Counted from the stretch's first letter, positions 26,621 to 36,403 are shown. The stretch is 64,000 bases of DNA from Candidatus Stramentimicrobium fermentans (GCA_012520575.1 JAAYOB010000023.1:1-64000), one strand, 5' to 3'. Translations and numbers: made by a program. The notes: generated from the letters alone by a model not told the origin.

Positions 26621-27442
26621 TTAGTATACCAAAAATGCTTGCAATACTTCTTTGGTTATCTTATCCTGCACAAAAACTACCCCATAATATCTGTCGAGCT
26701 CAGCATCTTCATCTTCTATCTCCGCCAGATCCAGATGTGAGACAAAGTCAAATTTTTTTTCTTCCAATGGAGCTAACTGACAGATATCCTGCTCTCCAAA
26801 GATATCTTTTACTAAATAAAAGAATTCGCTCTCATCGCCTTCATAGTAGACCATCCCGCCTAACATCAGATTCTGCAATTGCGAATGGCTCCGGTTGAGA
26901 ACACTTCCCCGTATAATGATTTTTCCGCCGCAGATCTCCATCATTACTTTTATCTCTACCGGCGTAGATTCGGCTAATTGTTTCTCTATAATACTCCGAT
27001 ATGCGGCAATATTCTCATCTATGTCGGCACAATCACTATGCAAGCCATGCACGCGCTCTGCCAGTCCGTTAAAGAAGGCATCGGGGGTGCCTTTTATACC
27101 GCTGCCGGTATACCAATCATAACGGGTATTGGCCTGCGGAATATCATGCCCATCCCCCCAGATGTGTGCCTCAACCAGAATTACCGTCCCCGGCTCATAG
27201 CTCCAGGCAAGATCTTCCAAGCAAAAAGCGGCTTTGGGACATACCGTACAGTCCTCATTAACAAAAAGCTCTATAAGTACATTGCGCGGTACTTCAGCAC
27301 ATAGATTGTTTTGTATATTTTCTACTGAAGGTTTCTCGGCTCCTTGACCAAATGCAAAATTTATAATTGTGGTACAGGCTATTATAAAAACAATAATATA
27401 AACTGCAACTAAATGCTTATTTTTCTTCATATCTCTTTGCAC
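26621..27442 (-). CDS. Secreted thioredoxin-fold-like protein (Omp28-like), paralogue of 30471-31220
   Basis: N-terminal hydrophobic signal; NVLIELFVNEDCTVCPKAAFCLEDLA with CxxC; C-terminal YYGVVFVQDKITKEVLQAFLVY. Confidence 0.7.
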   Translation of the reverse strand: MQRDMKKNKHLVAVYIIVFIIACTTIINFAFGQGAEKPSVENIQNNLCAEVPRNVLIELFVNEDCTVCPKAAFCLEDLAWSYEPGTVILVEAHIWGDGHDIPQANTRYDWYTGSGIKGTPDAFFNGLAERVHGLHSDCADIDENIAAYRSIIEKQLAESTPVEIKVMMEICGGKIIIRGSVLNRSHSQLQNLMLGGMVYYEGDESEFFYLVKDIFGEQDICQLAPLEEKKFDFVSHLDLAEIEDEDAELDRYYGVVFVQDKITKEVLQAFLVY

Positions 27443-27530
27443 TATTTCCTGATTATTCTCCGATAAAGTTGAGTTAGAACATTAGAACATGCCATTCATC
27501 ATAGTATTTCCTCATCAGGTATGTAAGCCC

Positions 27531-29615
27531 TCACTTTTCTGCTTCTAAATTTATTAACAAAGTTTTTGAGTATCCGGAAATTTTGCTTTCCGGTGAAATC
27601 TCAATAACTTTTTTTAAGGCCTCTATTGCCTTTTCTTTTTTATCCTGGTTTAGATATGCCCCTGCTAATCCATAATAAGCTTCAGCGCTATCAGAGTTAT
27701 TAAAAGTTACTCTTTCAAATTGGTGAACAGCTTTATTATATTCCCCAGCTGTCAGATAAAGATTACCTAGCTGCAATAGTAAGGGCTCCATATTTTTTTT
27801 GTTCTCCTGATATTCTATTCCTCGCTCTAAATAAGGAATCGCTTTATTAGTCTCTCCCACTTTAATAAATTGAACTGCTATATTCTGGGGTAGGCGATGA
27901 TGATCAACATATTTTTCAGCTTTAAGAAGATATTCCAACGCAAGCTGATTTATGTCTTTGCTGGCTAAAATATTTCCTATATCAAAATACATTTCACCCT
28001 GCCAGGGATTCCATTTTAATCCCTTTTCGTATAGTTTTATCCCTTTGTTGTAATTTCCAAGAGCAATTTGCTCATTACCATAATACCAGTAAACTCTGGA
28101 CATGAATGGTTTTATTAGCAAAAAACTGGTAAAGACTGCAAGTACAATAATGAAAAATGACCATATAGTCTTTTTAATTACTGGACCATAATTATTAATA
28201 AACTTTTTCTCTATTGATTTGTTGACTTTACCAGTGATAAAAGCAGACTCATTACCATGTTTATCATTTAATTCTTGAGAGACAATAATCTGGGCATTGG
28301 TAAGACCTATAAACATCCAGAATAAAGATGATGAGGCGGCTAACTGCAAAGGAAATCCAAAAATAGCATCCAGCAATACTGCCATTATCCCACCCATTAA
28401 TGAAATAACAATACTTTTACCACTCTCACTTATACTGGGAAGATTTATTAAAATATTTCGGCAATAAATGAATAAGATACTTAAAAAGAGCAATAACCCA
28501 ATAATTCCTATTTCCGACCACATTTGCAAATACTCATTGTGGGCTTGCACTGCATAACCATGCGGATAAATTTCTCTATTATCTCTTTGTGCGAAAAATT
28601 GGGCTTGATATTTCAGAGTGTTATATCCGTATGTGCCCAACCCTGAACCAAATAAAGGGTAATCCTTAATCATCATCCAGGTGGATTTCCATATTGCGAC
28701 TCTTCTTAGGATAGAACTGCCAGAAGACAAAGATTCAATAGTAATTCTTTGTTTCAATTTTCCAATAGGGGTATTCTCTCTATTCAAAGGATGGGGAATA
28801 TAAATAATAGTTGTTGCTATTATAATGACTAAAATAAAACATAGCATCAGTTTTTTATAGATTTGTTTATCAAACAAATTTGCGGCACTTTTATAATAAC
28901 ACAAAATCACTATGGGAATAGCAATAAAAACACCCAGATAGGAGCCCCTGGTAAAAGTAAGAAAGAGGGTAACGCCCATTACCCCTGCAGCAAAAAATAA
29001 GAAAAAACGATTTATTATTTTTACTTTTGAAAAAATTAGACCTAAAGTTAAGGATAAAGGCAAAATAATGTATTCTGCAAAATAATTGACATTTCCAAAA
29101 AGACCAAAGACTTTGTTTCTTCCAATATTCTCTGTCCAAAATTCGAAATCAATTCCAAGGTACTGTAATATACCATATATTCCCAATCCTGTTCCCATAA
29201 TAACTATTACGAATAGAAGAATATGTATATCTTTTTGTCTATACATAGAATTGGTAACAAGAAAATAAACAATTGGGCCCGCCAAAAAAAAGGGCAAAGC
29301 CAGAATAGTTCTCTGAACATTGATGGTCCAAAATAATGACGATATCATATAAAGTATATAGATGAAAACAAATACGTCGAGACTTGATTTTTTCAGGTGG
29401 TATTCTTCAAAGAAAACAACTCTTAGCAAAATAAAAGCTAATCCTATTAAGGCAGTTAATTGAAAGATTAAGTTTTTTATGGGGTCAAATACCGGTATAC
29501 TATACGGATAAAATGCAATTGGCAATAGAATAACATTCAATAACAATATTAAGAAGACACACTTGTCCCACTTTAAGCAATGATTGTCTATAATTAAACT
29601 ATTTTTAACATTCAT
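27531..29615 (-). CDS. O-antigen ligase/polymerase family membrane protein with C-terminal TPR repeats
   Basis: Many TM segments; HNEYLQMWSEIGIIGLLLFLSIL motif; C-terminal TPR (YYGLAGAYLNQDKKEKAIEALKKVIEISPES). Confidence 0.88.
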   Translation of the reverse strand: MNVKNSLIIDNHCLKWDKCVFLILLLNVILLPIAFYPYSIPVFDPIKNLIFQLTALIGLAFILLRVVFFEEYHLKKSSLDVFVFIYILYMISSLFWTINVQRTILALPFFLAGPIVYFLVTNSMYRQKDIHILLFVIVIMGTGLGIYGILQYLGIDFEFWTENIGRNKVFGLFGNVNYFAEYIILPLSLTLGLIFSKVKIINRFFLFFAAGVMGVTLFLTFTRGSYLGVFIAIPIVILCYYKSAANLFDKQIYKKLMLCFILVIIIATTIIYIPHPLNRENTPIGKLKQRITIESLSSGSSILRRVAIWKSTWMMIKDYPLFGSGLGTYGYNTLKYQAQFFAQRDNREIYPHGYAVQAHNEYLQMWSEIGIIGLLLFLSILFIYCRNILINLPSISESGKSIVISLMGGIMAVLLDAIFGFPLQLAASSSLFWMFIGLTNAQIIVSQELNDKHGNESAFITGKVNKSIEKKFINNYGPVIKKTIWSFFIIVLAVFTSFLLIKPFMSRVYWYYGNEQIALGNYNKGIKLYEKGLKWNPWQGEMYFDIGNILASKDINQLALEYLLKAEKYVDHHRLPQNIAVQFIKVGETNKAIPYLERGIEYQENKKNMEPLLLQLGNLYLTAGEYNKAVHQFERVTFNNSDSAEAYYGLAGAYLNQDKKEKAIEALKKVIEISPESKISGYSKTLLINLEAEK

Positions 29616-29727
29616 TTGGTATTGCCGTTAATATAAAAGATAGATTTTTACCTTTTTCCTGTTAGTAATGCTGTAAATAATGAAATAAGATATCGTACCC
29701 TATCTTTATTTTCATCTTAGTGTAAAG

Positions 29728-30153
29728 CTATTTAACATTGACTATTGCTTGTGCCCACTGACCGGCAGTGCCGCCATAATTAACCCATACTTCATATCTA
29801 CCTATTTTGTTATAGTCCTTAATGTTAAAAGTTGCGGTACGTGAATTTGTCCGCGGAGATATATTACATGCGGCACCGCAAGCAATGCATTGATACACAC
29901 AGGTCCATTTTATTTGCGATACATCAATATTGATTATTTTATTATCAGAATTATAGGCTTTTACTTCAAATCTTTGGGTCTGATTGGCTTTCATCTCTGC
30001 TTGGGATGGAAGCACTTTCAGATATTTTATCTCAGTGTTGCTTTCATCGTATTCATCCTCAGATATAGGAGGAGTTGGTCTAGTGCATCCTGCTACTAAA
30101 AAAAACATTAAAGCTATTAACACTATAATAGTTAAATTAAGCATTTTTCTCAC
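29728..30153 (-). CDS. Lipoprotein with Ig-like domain and Cys cluster
   Basis: Lipobox FFLVAGC; KVLPSQAEMKANQTQRFEVKAYNSDN; WTCVYQCIACGAACNIS. Confidence 0.7.
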   Translation of the reverse strand: MRKMLNLTIIVLIALMFFLVAGCTRPTPPISEDEYDESNTEIKYLKVLPSQAEMKANQTQRFEVKAYNSDNKIINIDVSQIKWTCVYQCIACGAACNISPRTNSRTATFNIKDYNKIGRYEVWVNYGGTAGQWAQAIVNVK

Positions 30154-30470
30154 AAAAGGATTCCTCCTTACCTTTTTTTAGTTTTTTAAAGGTTTCCCCT
30201 GCTGACGCTCGCGCAAAGGGCTGAAGATATGTTCATTTAAAATTTTAATTGATTTGGATTATGCTATATATTGTCAGCAAATCCTTTCAATCAAACAATG
30301 AATATGGCAATTACTACAATACTTCCCTTTATCCTATTGTAAATGAGAATCAGGAATTGTGTCTGGATTTTAACTCAGCCACAATTCCATACCATACATA
30401 GAACTATACTTATTCTCTTATTTAATTCTTTAACCAATCCATCCATTATTAATTTGAAATGGAGGTTATG

Positions 30471-31220
30471 TCAGTTTATAAAAAGAGATTGATGCACTCT
30501 TTTTTTACCTGTTGTTTCCTGTACAAAGATAACCCCGTCAAAGCCCTTCCCATCCCAATTAATATCTGTTAAAGTTATGCTAAAATTTTTTGTTTCTCCA
30601 ACTGCCAAGGCAGGCACAGGTACCTTCTCTTTTTCAAAAATATAAGTCGCCGCATAGGCAAGGTTGCCGCTTCTTTTAAAAGTCATTCCATTTATAACCA
30701 TATTGGAAAGCGTGGTAGTGCCTATATTTTTTATAGTTCCGCTTATCACAGAATTTTGTCCATTTTGAATTCTATTAGCTTGAATAGAAACCTTGGGAGG
30801 AATATTTAATTGAGCATCAATTCTATTCTTTAAAGTAGAGTAATCATGGGAGCCTGCAAGATAACTAGCAAGGCCATTAAATATAGTATGTGGAACTGTC
30901 GAAGCAAGATTGTACCAGTCATAATGTCTTGTTTTAGATTCAGGTATGGAGTAGATACCCCAGGGGATTATCTCTACCAGAATCATTTCGTCTCGACTGT
31001 ATTCTGATGCTAATTTCTCTAAATGTGGTTTTAGTTTAGCACAAACAGGGCAATTATTGGTTACAAAGGTCTCCACTAACACTACCTGTTTTACTGCTTC
31101 TTCGCCTTCGCCTTCGCCTTCTGTTCCGTTAGGGGGAGTTACGCCGTCACATCCTGTAATAGCAAAAATTGTGAAAAATATTATAAGCAAAAATACTAAT
31201 GTTTTTTTCATTCGATTCAT
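30471..31220 (-). CDS. Thioredoxin-like (Omp28-like) lipoprotein
   Basis: Lipobox FAITGC, EGEGEGEE linker, VVLVETFVTNNCPVCAKLKPHLEKLASEY, C-terminal FDGVIFVQETTGKKRVHQSLFIN. Confidence 0.75.
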   Translation of the reverse strand: MNRMKKTLVFLLIIFFTIFAITGCDGVTPPNGTEGEGEGEEAVKQVVLVETFVTNNCPVCAKLKPHLEKLASEYSRDEMILVEIIPWGIYSIPESKTRHYDWYNLASTVPHTIFNGLASYLAGSHDYSTLKNRIDAQLNIPPKVSIQANRIQNGQNSVISGTIKNIGTTTLSNMVINGMTFKRSGNLAYAATYIFEKEKVPVPALAVGETKNFSITLTDINWDGKGFDGVIFVQETTGKKRVHQSLFIN

Positions 31221-31294
31221 CTCCTTAAATATTTAATGCTATCTTAAAATACTTTCCTATTCTTTTCTATTTTAGAAAAACAATATTCAATCAG

Positions 31295-32065
31295 TTACCT
31301 AATCACATTAATCCGGGCTCCCGCAGTCAGAGAATTGTATTGTACTCTAATATTTCTTAAACCCGGCGACTCTGGAGCTGTATAGATAGTCTCCAATCCA
31401 ACCTCTGGTACCAATTCACCAACCATGCACGGTTTACTCCATACTGTTAATTTTTCATCTAAAGGTACTTCATTAACTGAAAATAAATCATATCCTTTTA
31501 CTATAAAAGATAATTTTTCCCCTACCCTTAAGGTGGCTTCTATCGGCACAACAGCAATAGAAAAAAGCTCCTGCATCTCATAGTTTACAGTACAATAGAA
31601 GGGATTTTGACCTTCAGCAGGTAAAATGTTTCCTGCTTCATCTTTAAAGCGAACAAATATATTTTTTATACCGGAAGTTCTTACTGTACCAAAATATCCA
31701 TTGGCAATGTTAAATTGGTCATATTTTTTAGAAAATCTAATCCATTCAGACCAATCTTCACCATTACCGCTAAAGGACATGTATTCAATATCGTCTTCCT
31801 CGACCAATATTTCCATCTCAGGTGTGCAGTCTTTTATAATATCAGGGCTACCCTTAATAGATAAAAAATTTTTGGTACCACTATCACCCTCAACAGCACT
31901 ATTGCTGTGATCATCTGCATTATGGTAGGAAATAAAAGGATATTGCTGACAGGTACAGATAAAAAAGGGCGTTGAAAAGCATATAAAAATGACAATCAAT
32001 TTTTTAAAAACGAATGGATATTTCTTCATGCAACTTATTATATAAGACCAAAGTATTATTAGCAA
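31295..32065 (-). CDS. Putative lipoprotein with Ig-like C-terminal domain
   Basis: PFFICTC lipobox after MKKYPFVFKKLIVIF (likely true start at an internal Met); VVPIEATLRVGEKLSFIVKGYD. Confidence 0.6.
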   Translation of the reverse strand: MLIILWSYIISCMKKYPFVFKKLIVIFICFSTPFFICTCQQYPFISYHNADDHSNSAVEGDSGTKNFLSIKGSPDIIKDCTPEMEILVEEDDIEYMSFSGNGEDWSEWIRFSKKYDQFNIANGYFGTVRTSGIKNIFVRFKDEAGNILPAEGQNPFYCTVNYEMQELFSIAVVPIEATLRVGEKLSFIVKGYDLFSVNEVPLDEKLTVWSKPCMVGELVPEVGLETIYTAPESPGLRNIRVQYNSLTAGARINVIR

Positions 32066-32207
32066 GTATTCGTTATAAGTATTCCATACCTGATTGGTTA
32101 TAGTTACAGGGTGCCATTTTAAGCAAAGCAGCTTTCAATCCCATGAATATGACACGGATAATGTTTAACAAAATTGATTAAACAGATTTTTGTATTTTGC
32201 ATTCTCC

Positions 32208-32256
32208 ACAATAAGGAAAGAGAAAGATTTTAAAAATCTTTCTCTTTCCTTATTGT
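32208..32256. terminator. Perfect 24-bp inverted repeat with 1-nt centre, probable hairpin after the Cys-rich lipoprotein
   Basis: ACAATAAGGAAAGAGAAAGATTTT-A-AAAATCTTTCTCTTTCCTTATTGT. Confidence 0.65.
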
Positions 32257-32345
32257 TATTTCTAATTCAATACTATATTGTTTAGTTTCTAATTTAATGT
32301 TTTTGTAATAATATATAGTATTACCGCTTAATTGATTAATCTACT

Positions 32346-33374
32346 CTAATCGCAACAATTCCCTGCAGGAAGACAAGTACCAATGACTCCATCTGCTGTT
32401 GCACCGACAACACAGGAGGTATCAGTTGATTCTGTTTCCCAAGTGGTACATGCACAATTCAGTTTATCCGCACAGTATCTTGTTACTGTAACCGCACATC
32501 CTGTTTCCCCTGTTTGTGTCATGGTAGCATAATATTCTACTTCATTTCCTACATTATCAACTAAAGTAGCAATAACGTAATAGAGTATTTTATTATTTGT
32601 AACGTTTCTAAGAGGTAAGCAGCTTGTTTTTGTATCTATCGGACAATCAGTTCCGCTGTCAGACCAGATGGGGTCATAACAAGTTGTGGCACAGCATTTG
32701 TCAAAGGGATTTTTATTATAAATAGCAATTGACCAGCCAGCCAATCCGGAACAATCATCACCGCAGCATTCTGCATCTGCTTTACAATCTTGTGAAGTTA
32801 CCTGGCTCTTAAAGGTGAATTCACAATCTTCACATTCACAATCAGCTCCCTTTACTTCAATACAGGCAAATGGTGGCAAGCAATCTACGATAACCGGTAC
32901 CTGGATGCAGGTATCTTCATCACATTCCCCGGCTACTACAGTAACATAGGATGCACAGCATTCACTTGTAAGATTGCAGCTATCTGGGTCGCCGCAAGGA
33001 GTACAAGCAAATTTGTATTTACCGGACCAGACGGTATTATCCTCATTGGGCCATAGGACTATCTGAGTGCCAGAGGTTGGTTGTTTGCTATAATCACCAA
33101 GACAATCACTGACAAAAACACGGGCGTTAACTACCGGTTTCGGGAAGGTAACTGTAATATCATGGTTACCACCGGAAACATAATTTTTTCCACCAATTTC
33201 AACGGCACCGTCTATTTCGACCACAACTCCGTCAACTGGATCATCGGGATCATCGGGATCTGGTCCCGGTCCCGGGGGTAAACAGCCGACAAAGAGAAAT
33301 GCGGTCAAGGCTGCGATTAAAAGTAGTACTAAAAATTTCTTATTCATTAAGAATTCTCCTTCCATTTTTTTCAA
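32346..33374 (-). CDS. Cysteine-rich lipoprotein of unknown function
   Basis: MNKKFLVLLLIAALTAFLFVGC lipobox; PPGPGPDPDDPDDPVDG linker; 31 Cys counted in the 342-aa ORF; likely start is the internal MNKK. Confidence 0.85.
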   Translation of the reverse strand: MKKMEGEFLMNKKFLVLLLIAALTAFLFVGCLPPGPGPDPDDPDDPVDGVVVEIDGAVEIGGKNYVSGGNHDITVTFPKPVVNARVFVSDCLGDYSKQPTSGTQIVLWPNEDNTVWSGKYKFACTPCGDPDSCNLTSECCASYVTVVAGECDEDTCIQVPVIVDCLPPFACIEVKGADCECEDCEFTFKSQVTSQDCKADAECCGDDCSGLAGWSIAIYNKNPFDKCCATTCYDPIWSDSGTDCPIDTKTSCLPLRNVTNNKILYYVIATLVDNVGNEVEYYATMTQTGETGCAVTVTRYCADKLNCACTTWETESTDTSCVVGATADGVIGTCLPAGNCCD

Positions 33375-33751
33375 TGAATTATGTTTTTTATTTTTCCATG
33401 GATTTTCCTGAGAAATTAATTAATTCCTCTTTTTCCGGCTTCTCTGCTCTTCAGCTGTAATTTAAAAGTATTTTACAGATAAATGCCGTATGTCGACCTC
33501 ATACAGGCTAAGATGCCAGCTTTTATATACATTTTTGTATTTTATATTACCTTCCCTTTAAATGTCAAGTATTACAATCAAAATCCAAGCGAAAGTAATT
33601 TTCAGTTATCGGTTAGGGACCACAGGTTTTCAGGTAAAGAGTGCAGGTTAACAACCATTTGTCACCTGTGAACATTTTTCTTTATCTACGCTCAACTTAA
33701 AAAACTATTTAGATAGCTGATTAATCTATTTTCAAGGTACGGATACTAATA

Positions 33752-34756
33752 CTATTTAAAGGGCGATGAGCCGCTTTCATTATCAGCAGATGTATCTCCA
33801 CTGCCGGAAGAAAAGGGCGATGAGCCGCTTTCTCCCGCGGGAGCGGCAGGACCGGAGCCGGAAATAATGCTGCCGTAAGAGGCCGGAATATCCGGACTTG
33901 CCGTGATATTTCCGGTACCGTCTGCGTAAGTATCATGGGAAGATGTACCGGATGAAACTTGAACAGCGATTTGTGCCGTGATAAGGTCCTGTATATTCAT
34001 ACAGATATTTTCCATACTATTCCCGTTATCCAGCGCTTGATGAAATATGGTTTCCAATTTATCGCTACCGATGCCTAACTCTGTGGCTCTCAGGCTAAGG
34101 CCGGCCAGCTCTTTGGTAACTTCTTCCACTTCTTTCCAGCTTTTGCCCTGTTCGCTGCTTATTTCCAGGACCCGTTCCAGTGCATTTGAAGACACACCGT
34201 TAGCCAGAGAATCGGCTAAAACATCGATTATCTCTTCCCGTTTTTCATCCGAGAGCTGCTTTCCGGCTAAAAGGATTTGGGCGGTCTCCATATTTTCCAA
34301 TTTCCGGTTCAGTACCTCTATGATGGCTTTTGCCTCTACGTTTTTGACTAAACCTTCTTTAACCTTATTGATAAGGGGCTTTTCCGAGATACCGATGTCT
34401 TTGGCTGAAATGGCGGTATCTAAAAATTTCTTTACATTGTAGGGATCCACCTTATTATCGATACTCGCCTTTATGATGGATAAGGTGTCTTCTTCCGAGA
34501 TACCTTTTTCTATTGCCTCCCGGGTACTGTTTGCCACCATTCTCTTTTGGAAGTCGCTATAAGAAGACTTTTCCAAATATTGCTCCAATTGTTCCAAATC
34601 AATGTCATCTGCCGGGGCAGAAAAGGCCGGGAAAATTAGAAACAAAAAAAGAAATAGAGAGATTAACAGTTGAACGTTCAGCTTAGATAATATTCCGTAA
34701 CCCTTATTCTGTTTTCCTTTTATTTCTTTTTTCATAGTGTCTTTAATGTCTTTCAT
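33752..34756 (-). CDS. Secreted/anchored alpha-helical protein of unknown function with Gly/Ser-rich repeat tail
   Basis: Signal-like LLISLFLFLFLIFPAFSAPA; helical body; tail GESGSSPFSSGSGDTSADNESGSSPFK. Confidence 0.75.
   Translation of the reverse strand: MKDIKDTMKKEIKGKQNKGYGILSKLNVQLLISLFLFLFLIFPAFSAPADDIDLEQLEQYLEKSSYSDFQKRMVANSTREAIEKGISEEDTLSIIKASIDNKVDPYNVKKFLDTAISAKDIGISEKPLINKVKEGLVKNVEAKAIIEVLNRKLENMETAQILLAGKQLSDEKREEIIDVLADSLANGVSSNALERVLEISSEQGKSWKEVEEVTKELAGLSLRATELGIGSDKLETIFHQALDNGNSMENICMNIQDLITAQIAVQVSSGTSSHDTYADGTGNITASPDIPASYGSIISGSGPAAPAGESGSSPFSSGSGDTSADNESGSSPFK
33758..33832. repeat. 21-bp direct repeat, 54-bp period, coding for ESGSSPF
   Basis: AAAGGGCGATGAGCCGCTTTC identical at 33758-33778 and 33812-33832. 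Confidence 0.9.
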
Positions 34757-34893: not shown

Positions 34894-35574
34894 TCAATTG
34901 CAAACACATTTGCTGATTTCCAGAACCGCATTCTTATTACCGAATCCGTCATTAACATATTGGTATGCCGACGGATCGGGCACCCATTTCTGCCCGTCAA
35001 TAATAAACATATACTCATAGCGCCCCGGCTCTAACTTCAGAGTAGTAGTCCAGAGGCCGTCGTGGTTAACATCGGTGAGCGGATTTCGATTGGGATCCCA
35101 GTCATTGAAGTCGCCAACTACGGCAATACTCTGTACTTGAGTGGCGTCCGCTCTCATGGAAAAGGTAATATCGGTTAGGCCATCGGGGCAATACTGTTCT
35201 ACCGGGTGGAAAAATGCATTATAGCTGAATAGAACCGCCACCAGCACCATAGTAACGGCGGCTCCCCATTTTAAGGAGACCCGGGGTAGAGCCAGGAGGT
35301 TGCTTATTCTCTCCAACCAGCCCGGAGCGGCTGTTTGCTCTTCCCGTTCAATTTTTTGCATAACTCTGCCCGTAAAGTCGGGAGACGGCTCCTCATCCAG
35401 CAAGGAGAAAGAAGCTAAACTATGGAAAAGCTCCTGCCAGCGGGCAAATTCTTTCTGACAGACAGGGCAAGAGACAAGATGTTCTTCTATCTCGATCTTC
35501 TCCTCTGCCGAAAGCCGGGCTTCCAGGTAATCCTCTATATAGTTTTGAATGTTTTGACATTCTTTTTCTTGCAT
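34894..35574 (-). CDS. Zinc-finger anti-sigma factor with C-terminal CBM48/AMPK-beta-like domain
   Basis: IEEHLVSCPVCQKEF (HxxxCxxC); one TM (AAVTMVLVAVLFSYNAFF); IAVVGDFNDWDPNRNPLTDVNHDGLWTTTLKLEPGRYEYMFIIDGQKWVPDPSA. Confidence 0.87.
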   Translation of the reverse strand: MQEKECQNIQNYIEDYLEARLSAEEKIEIEEHLVSCPVCQKEFARWQELFHSLASFSLLDEEPSPDFTGRVMQKIEREEQTAAPGWLERISNLLALPRVSLKWGAAVTMVLVAVLFSYNAFFHPVEQYCPDGLTDITFSMRADATQVQSIAVVGDFNDWDPNRNPLTDVNHDGLWTTTLKLEPGRYEYMFIIDGQKWVPDPSAYQYVNDGFGNKNAVLEISKCVCN

Positions 35575-35776: not shown

Positions 35777-36403
35777 TTATTCTTTATTTTCCTGTTCCTG
35801 TTCCTGTAACATATCTTTGAGCTCTACTCTGGCACGGTGCAAGCGCACCTTCACGGAATTCAGAGTGATATTAAGAATTTTAGAAATTTCGTAATAGGAA
35901 AGGTTTTGTATATGACGCAGAATAATAATCTCCCTATGGGAAAGCGACAAGGCGTTAATGGCTGACTGCATGGCAAATCTGTTCTGCTTGCGAATCTGCC
36001 GCTCTTCAGGGTCTTCAGCCAACTCGGCAGAGTTTGGGTATAGCGGACTCCCTGCCTCTTGATAGTTTTCGGGCTGAGCAGAAAAAGATGCGGTCAAATC
36101 CTGCTTTCTAATCCTATCGCGAATGGTATTAAGGGTAATCTGATAAAGCCAGCTGGAGAAGGAATAAGAAGGCTTATATTGGTGCAGTGAGCGGTAGGCC
36201 TTTAGAAAAGACTCCTGGGCGATGTCTTCACTGTCATGATAATTAGCGGTCATGCGCAGCGCCAGCTGATAGACCATATTCTTATATTTCTCCACTAAAT
36301 AGGCAAAGGCATCACTGTTTCCGGCCTGACATAATTCTATTATCTTAAGGTCATTATCATGAGTGTGAGCGGCATTAAAATCCAAGCGATTTTTTATATT
36401 CAT
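35777..36403 (-). CDS. ECF RNA polymerase sigma factor (RpoE-like)
   Basis: AFAYLVEKYKNMVYQLALRMTANYHDSEDIAQESFLKAYRSL; LSLSHREIIILRHIQNLSYYEISKILNITLNSVKVRLHRARVEL. Confidence 0.96.
   Translation of the reverse strand: MNIKNRLDFNAAHTHDNDLKIIELCQAGNSDAFAYLVEKYKNMVYQLALRMTANYHDSEDIAQESFLKAYRSLHQYKPSYSFSSWLYQITLNTIRDRIRKQDLTASFSAQPENYQEAGSPLYPNSAELAEDPEERQIRKQNRFAMQSAINALSLSHREIIILRHIQNLSYYEISKILNITLNSVKVRLHRARVELKDMLQEQEQENKE

Follow-up and report, generated by a model that had tools for sequence, protein, structure and literature searches.

Chlamydial OmcA is a lipoprotein. OmcA and OmcB are Cys-rich envelope proteins of the disulfide cross-linked outer membrane complex of chlamydiae, which also possess a DsbA-DsbB oxidase pair (PMC6752827). 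A thioredoxin-like CxxC domain is found in envelope proteins of two described families, the Omp28 lipoproteins (NF033782) and an Omp28-related selenoprotein (NF045500), and CcdA/DsbD-type pathways serve envelope reduction. At the RNA level, riboswitches and structured 5' leaders (Rfam; PMC2864571, PMC7266159) are conserved multi-helix RNAs with conserved loop and junction bases.

The locus described here, from Candidatus Stramentimicrobium fermentans, compares with each of these systems. As in chlamydiae, Cys-rich envelope proteins are accompanied by envelope thiol-disulfide proteins, yet the Cys-rich lipoprotein of this locus, CYS31, has no family match, and DsbB was not found in its genome. 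Its two thioredoxin-like proteins, CXXC_A and CXXC_B, have Omp28-type lipoproteins as their nearest NCBIfam matches, but the best scores of 28–32 bits lie far under the curated cut-offs of 150–200 (28.8 and 31.9 bits against 150 for NF033782), which places them outside these families. The genome carries a CcdA gene followed by a lipoprotein thioredoxin gene, and also a Trx-CcdA fusion, resembling CcdA/DsbD-type pathways; these relays are, however, unlinked to the CYS31 locus, and a partner relation is one that we infer. Finally, the CYS31 gene is preceded by a promoter-like site, an RNA and a ribosome-binding site, in the manner of riboswitch-controlled genes, and its leader shares with riboswitches a conserved covarying structure. 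Unlike Rfam riboswitches, it matches no Rfam family above the gathering cut-off and, in the ~2.0 Mb searched, is found only before one lipoprotein gene.

The CYS31 locus and its distribution

The window is the whole stretch of DNA analysed, 64,000 nucleotides long, from a genome of 1.58 Mb in 50 contigs. Four ORFs had been claimed in 26621–33374 by the sequence-only reading, and all four are found at those coordinates on the minus strand. The features of the locus are:

35777..36403, minus strand: sigma factor, probably of the ECF type, a name given on the basis of its sequence and neighbouring genes
34894..35574, minus strand: anti-sigma factor, a zf-HC2 zinc finger fused to a CBM48/AMPK1-type carbohydrate-binding domain
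33752..34756, minus strand: P7, uncharacterised, upstream of CYS31, with weak relatives across the phylum
33539..33568, minus strand: candidate sigma-70-like promoter of CYS31, TTGACA-18-TAAAAT, immediately upstream of the leader
33433..33526, minus strand: structured leader RNA core of CYS31, in which P1, P2 (7-nt loop AGGTCGA) and P3 meet at a junction
32346..33347, minus strand: CYS31, acidic lipoprotein rich in Cys, 333 aa long when started at the likely ATG; the TTG-start ORF extends to 33374
32208..32256, minus strand: hairpin 3' of CYS31, with a 24-bp perfect stem
31295..32065, minus strand: P5, probable Ig-like lipoprotein, conserved patchily with CXXC_B (G006, G010, G016)
30471..31220, minus strand: CXXC_B lipoprotein, thioredoxin-like domain (CPVC, VP at the cis-Pro position) and C-terminal Ig-like domain
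29728..30153, minus strand: CYSCL, small probable Ig-like lipoprotein with a conserved CxxC (CIAC)
27531..29615, minus strand: WZY membrane protein, O-antigen-ligase (Wzy_C) with C-terminal TPRs
26621..27442, minus strand: CXXC_A, thioredoxin-like CxxC protein that is secreted or anchored, has additional Cys and can be separated from the module

Cys content, gene families, neighbourhood, RNA structure, downstream hairpins, mosaic alleles and co-decay were computed. The comparison set comprised 50 genomes of the phylum, including that of the window, with 24 in the same order. CYS31 is present in 11 of these 24, a count that includes a pseudogene in G007 and fragments at contig ends (G001, G005, G010). 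Outside the order, none was found among the 50 phylum genomes after signal-peptide-only matches had been dropped; where the CYS31 profile matched the opening 40–60 residues of other proteins, the match reflects a shared lipoprotein signal and GE-linker and not homology. A CYS31 search of wider genome contigs gave one chance match and nothing else, and viral contigs searched with the RNA motif and with the CYS31 profile gave no match. The analysis defines CYS31 as a Cys-rich lipoprotein family restricted to one order, with mosaic alleles.

The gene order TPR lipoprotein, sigma factor, anti-sigma factor, P7, CYS31, P5, CXXC_B, CYSCL, WZY and CXXC_A is seen, whole or in part, in G001, G002, G003, G009, G010, G016, G021 and G022, though locally rearranged and interrupted by contig ends in places, and the ligase/TPR gene, WZY, is a member of the module throughout. 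Two findings had been named in advance as speaking against a functional system: a neighbourhood that is not conserved in relatives, and Cys-rich homologues occurring without the thioredoxin-like genes. Because about ten genomes of the order, from two families, share the neighbourhood, the claim largely withstands both, and the only homologue found without thioredoxin-like genes is the contig-end CYS31 fragment of G005, a genome 68% complete.

It seems unlikely to us that these genes are only neighbours heading an exopolysaccharide locus, with CYS31 and the CxxC genes functionally unconnected. Across the 24 genomes, CYS31 co-occurs with CXXC_A (Fisher P 0.001) and P7 (0.0005), values uncorrected for descent, which argues against such a reading. 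Its association with any CXXC_B is weaker (Fisher P 0.047, same genomes, likewise uncorrected) because CXXC_B paralogues also occupy a second locus, in relatives, next to genes for a redoxin and a DUF1573 protein. The unconnected reading draws its support from the apparent transcription of CYS31 as a unit of its own, from CxxC genes that occur without CYS31 (G006, G008, G011, G013, G015 and G019), and from the altered positions of CYS31, WZY and CXXC_B relative to each other in G002 and G009.

The Cys residues of CYS31

CYS31 had been described as a 342-aa lipoprotein with 31 Cys. The 31 Cys are indeed present in the 342-aa ORF, but the real start almost certainly gives 333 aa: the likely ATG at 33347 is preceded by a conserved GGAAGGAGAATTCTTA ribosome-binding site, and the TTG at 33374 would add nine poorly conserved residues. 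Cys accounts for 9.1% of CYS31, compared with 1.1% in window proteins, approximately 8 times background (binomial P ~1e-18), the highest content in its genome (1,559 predicted ORFs) for any protein of 100 aa or more, with 30 Cys in addition to the lipidated one. Neither CYS31 nor its profile has a significant match in Pfam, NCBIfam or the PDB, and the AlphaFold model is poor (pLDDT 45), with disulfide or metal geometry not readable from it. CYS31 appears to be a fast-evolving lipoprotein that is presumably exposed at the surface.

The family comparison covers eight complete sequences, from draft genomes with short contigs. Members are low in His and Met, the mature Cys number is even in six of the eight, and several Cys columns appear or vanish as matching pairs, a pattern that may, in eight sequences, reflect shared descent. 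Taken together, these features favour disulfides, and the analysis leans to disulfide rather than metal for the Cys residues. Alternatively, CYS31 thiolates might bind metal or be redox-active at the surface, with the CxxC proteins keeping the thiols reduced, which we judge improbable. Many CC, CxC and some CxxC motifs, the acidic composition, the anaerobic setting, and reductive CcdA relays with no oxidase recognised are all consistent with metal or redox chemistry; against it, the Cys residues are distributed along the entire chain and change in pairs rather than standing in fixed clusters, CxxC is rare in the family (0–3 per protein), His is almost lacking and no Pfam metal-binding domain is present.

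As a separate observation, a 131-aa lipoprotein in G032 (L081:9194-9589), unrelated to CYS31, combines a Thr/Pro stretch with 15 overlapping CxxC motifs.

Probable transcription unit and structured leader RNA

CYS31 appears to be transcribed on its own rather than in an operon with the CxxC genes, from a unit with a promoter-like site, a leader of ~185 nt and, past the stop codon, a strong hairpin. The hairpin is present in 8/8 orthologues, with z from -3.4 to -6.5 versus shuffles; of 13 control gene ends, 12 score +1.2 to -2.7, and the other, WZY of G002, scores -4.6. Sites like TTGACA-18-TAAAAT can be recognised in G001, in G003 and in the pseudogene of G007 and are not evident in several relatives. 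A promoter scan of the region finds no more sites than in shuffles, so the promoter call is made from position and partial conservation only.

Upstream of CYS31, a leader element of ~100 nt is conserved in nine alleles, all those whose leader sequence could be compared, and in the G007 pseudogene. It folds into a three-helix junction, in which P1 pairs CTGG..TCTT with AAGA..CCAG, P2 is formed by CCGTATG-AGGTCGA-CATGCGG, and P3 pairs TTTATCTGTAA with TTACAGGTAAA. The helices contain 92% standard pairs, with two-sided changes in 15 of 29 pairs; the observed values are reached by 0/500 shuffles, and the covariation collapses to at most three two-sided pairs when the partners are slid. Realignment with a covariance model, which leans to structure, gives the same covariation result. 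The leader RNA is thus well supported as a real structure from sequence covariation. When the covariance model was run over 0.58 Mb (the window, related loci and other stretches), it detected the element nowhere but in front of CYS31. The search was extended by 1.43 Mb; this addition, taken together with the window and the stretches next to it, covers essentially the whole of the genome, and the best other match in it has E 7.3. The element occurs once in this genome, with ~2.0 Mb searched altogether.

The leader RNA probably sets the amount of CYS31 made. It is plausible, if short of likely, that it only stabilises the mRNA or fixes a constant, high translation of an abundant coat protein, and senses nothing. 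A single gene with a terminator-like hairpin, a Shine-Dalgarno sequence that can lie in a hairpin loop in most f1 members, and the lack of any alternative terminator fold seen in the CYS31 leader all agree with such a role. On the other side, the loop AGGTCGA (first base C in G016), AAATA after P3 and an AAGAG-like junction stretch are kept in sequence beyond pairing needs. We also propose, tentatively, that the leader could represent a new riboswitch or protein-binding RNA class that senses a redox, sulfur or envelope signal and tunes CYS31, the mature part being swapped beneath it.

Thioredoxin-like proteins and redox context

CXXC_A and CXXC_B are 31% identical, in agreement with the proposal that they are paralogues, and are the sole members of their family in the genome. 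The CxxC motif and Pro110, at the thioredoxin cis-Pro position, are invariant across 23 CXXC sequences; by analogy with thioredoxin, this Pro would be cis. A clear lipobox is present in CXXC_B, and CXXC_A is without one. CXXC_B scores 18.7 bits against PF00085 (threshold 23.5), and the CXXC profile matches PDB thioredoxins at E 0.001–0.1. In both proteins, the thioredoxin-like part is followed by a C-terminal domain; the AlphaFold model of CXXC_B is weak and usable only for its C-terminal sandwich, which matches Ig-like sandwiches. As for the C..C.C...C cluster pointed out in CYSCL, its inner CxxC (CIAC) is conserved, but its outer two Cys occur only in the window and G003.

A search of the window's genome for DsbB or VKOR found no match. 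With CcdA relays present and these oxidases not found, CXXC_B is likelier to be an isomerase or reductase than an oxidase.

Three further observations concern other proteins of these genomes. An AhpC/TSA peroxiredoxin in the window's genome (G000:C21:4979-5377, minus strand; L101) has an in-frame TGA exactly at its peroxidatic Cys (FYPGDFTFV*PTE) and is probably a selenoprotein. In the same genome (G000:C20; L102), a DUF1573-like lipoprotein lies beside a redoxin apparently without the usual Cys, near a Trx-CcdA fusion, and a comparable redoxin/DUF1573 locus in relatives also has a CXXC_B paralogue. A 758-aa protein of G006 (L061:3448-5724) joins a lipoprotein signal and a CxxC thioredoxin-like domain to an apparent caspase-type peptidase domain, a call that rests on the motifs GHGT and DSCHSGG.

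Decay in G007 and apparent mixed ancestry in G016

In G007, the block from the sigma factor to WZY is colinear but disrupted by frameshifts and premature stops. The genes at the two edges of the decayed block, for the TPR lipoprotein and CXXC_A, remain open, and ORF density over the next 40 kb of the contig is normal. This decay is a single case in a draft genome 78% complete. On the same contig (C72; L062 ~8.8–17.8 kb), the CYS31 leader RNA is still intact, at 90 bits, despite the decay of the module.

In G016, identity to the window is 48% for CYS31, 62% for CXXC_B and 54% for WZY, and all three are at least as close to the window as proteins of the window's own genus. CXXC_A of G016 is distant from that of the window (42% versus 63–72%), and P7, the sigma factor and the TPR lipoprotein match the f2 family. 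CXXC_A thus goes with the f2 lineage, and CYS31, CXXC_B and WZY with f1. Contamination as the source of the f1-like CYS31 contig is possible but less likely, because the contig bears an f2-type leader; it may be likelier for contig C27 of G022. Elsewhere in G016 (contig C65; L051 3028-4367), mostly non-coding stretches are ~80–97% identical among G016, G008 and G009, with differing surrounding genes, and possibly represent a shared mobile element.

The co-decay in G007 and the common lineage of CYS31, P5, CXXC_B and WZY in G016 argue further against the genes being mere neighbours. A dedicated folding pair had been suggested, and the neighbourhood is kept, but the pair is no unit, CXXC_A being separable in both genomes. 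Since G007 and G016 each split CXXC_A from the core, the pair is better framed as CYS31 and CXXC_B.

Mosaic CYS31 alleles

Leader identity exceeds coding-body identity in 26 of the 28 allele pairs (means 63% and 48%). Specifically, the leaders of G016 and G022b are 87% identical and their coding bodies 41%, whereas G016 and the window share 62% in the coding body and 54% in the leader. G022a and G009 share 96% in the leader and 50% in the body; G022a lies on a short contig, where a binning error is possible. The pattern suggests that the mature CYS31 coding sequence has been replaced between lineages under a resident leader.

Discussion

The explanation that we favour, with slightly more confidence than doubt, is that CYS31 is an envelope lipoprotein stabilised by disulfides and controlled through its RNA leader, and that CXXC_B is its thiol-disulfide partner. 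Here we infer the abundance and disulfide state of CYS31, the enzyme-substrate relation and the function of the RNA. CYS31 would be an envelope lipoprotein made in large amounts, with beta domains that are probably Ig-like; after export in an unfolded state, it would be locked by some 8–15 disulfides, around 15 in the case of the window protein. The gene would be transcribed alone from its own promoter, in a unit ended by the terminator-like hairpin, and the ~185-nt leader would set CYS31 output via ligand or protein binding or mRNA stabilisation. CXXC_B, fed by the CcdA-type relays of the genome, would most likely reshuffle or reduce wrong disulfides in CYS31 and CYSCL, and WZY may join glycan to the same surface layer. 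Between lineages, the mature CYS31 body would be exchanged while the leader stays resident.

The locus suggests that disulfides are handled in the envelope of an uncultured anaerobe whose genome gave no match to DsbB or VKOR, and it presents a covariance-supported RNA motif, without an Rfam counterpart and linked to a single gene, that is testable in vitro without the organism.
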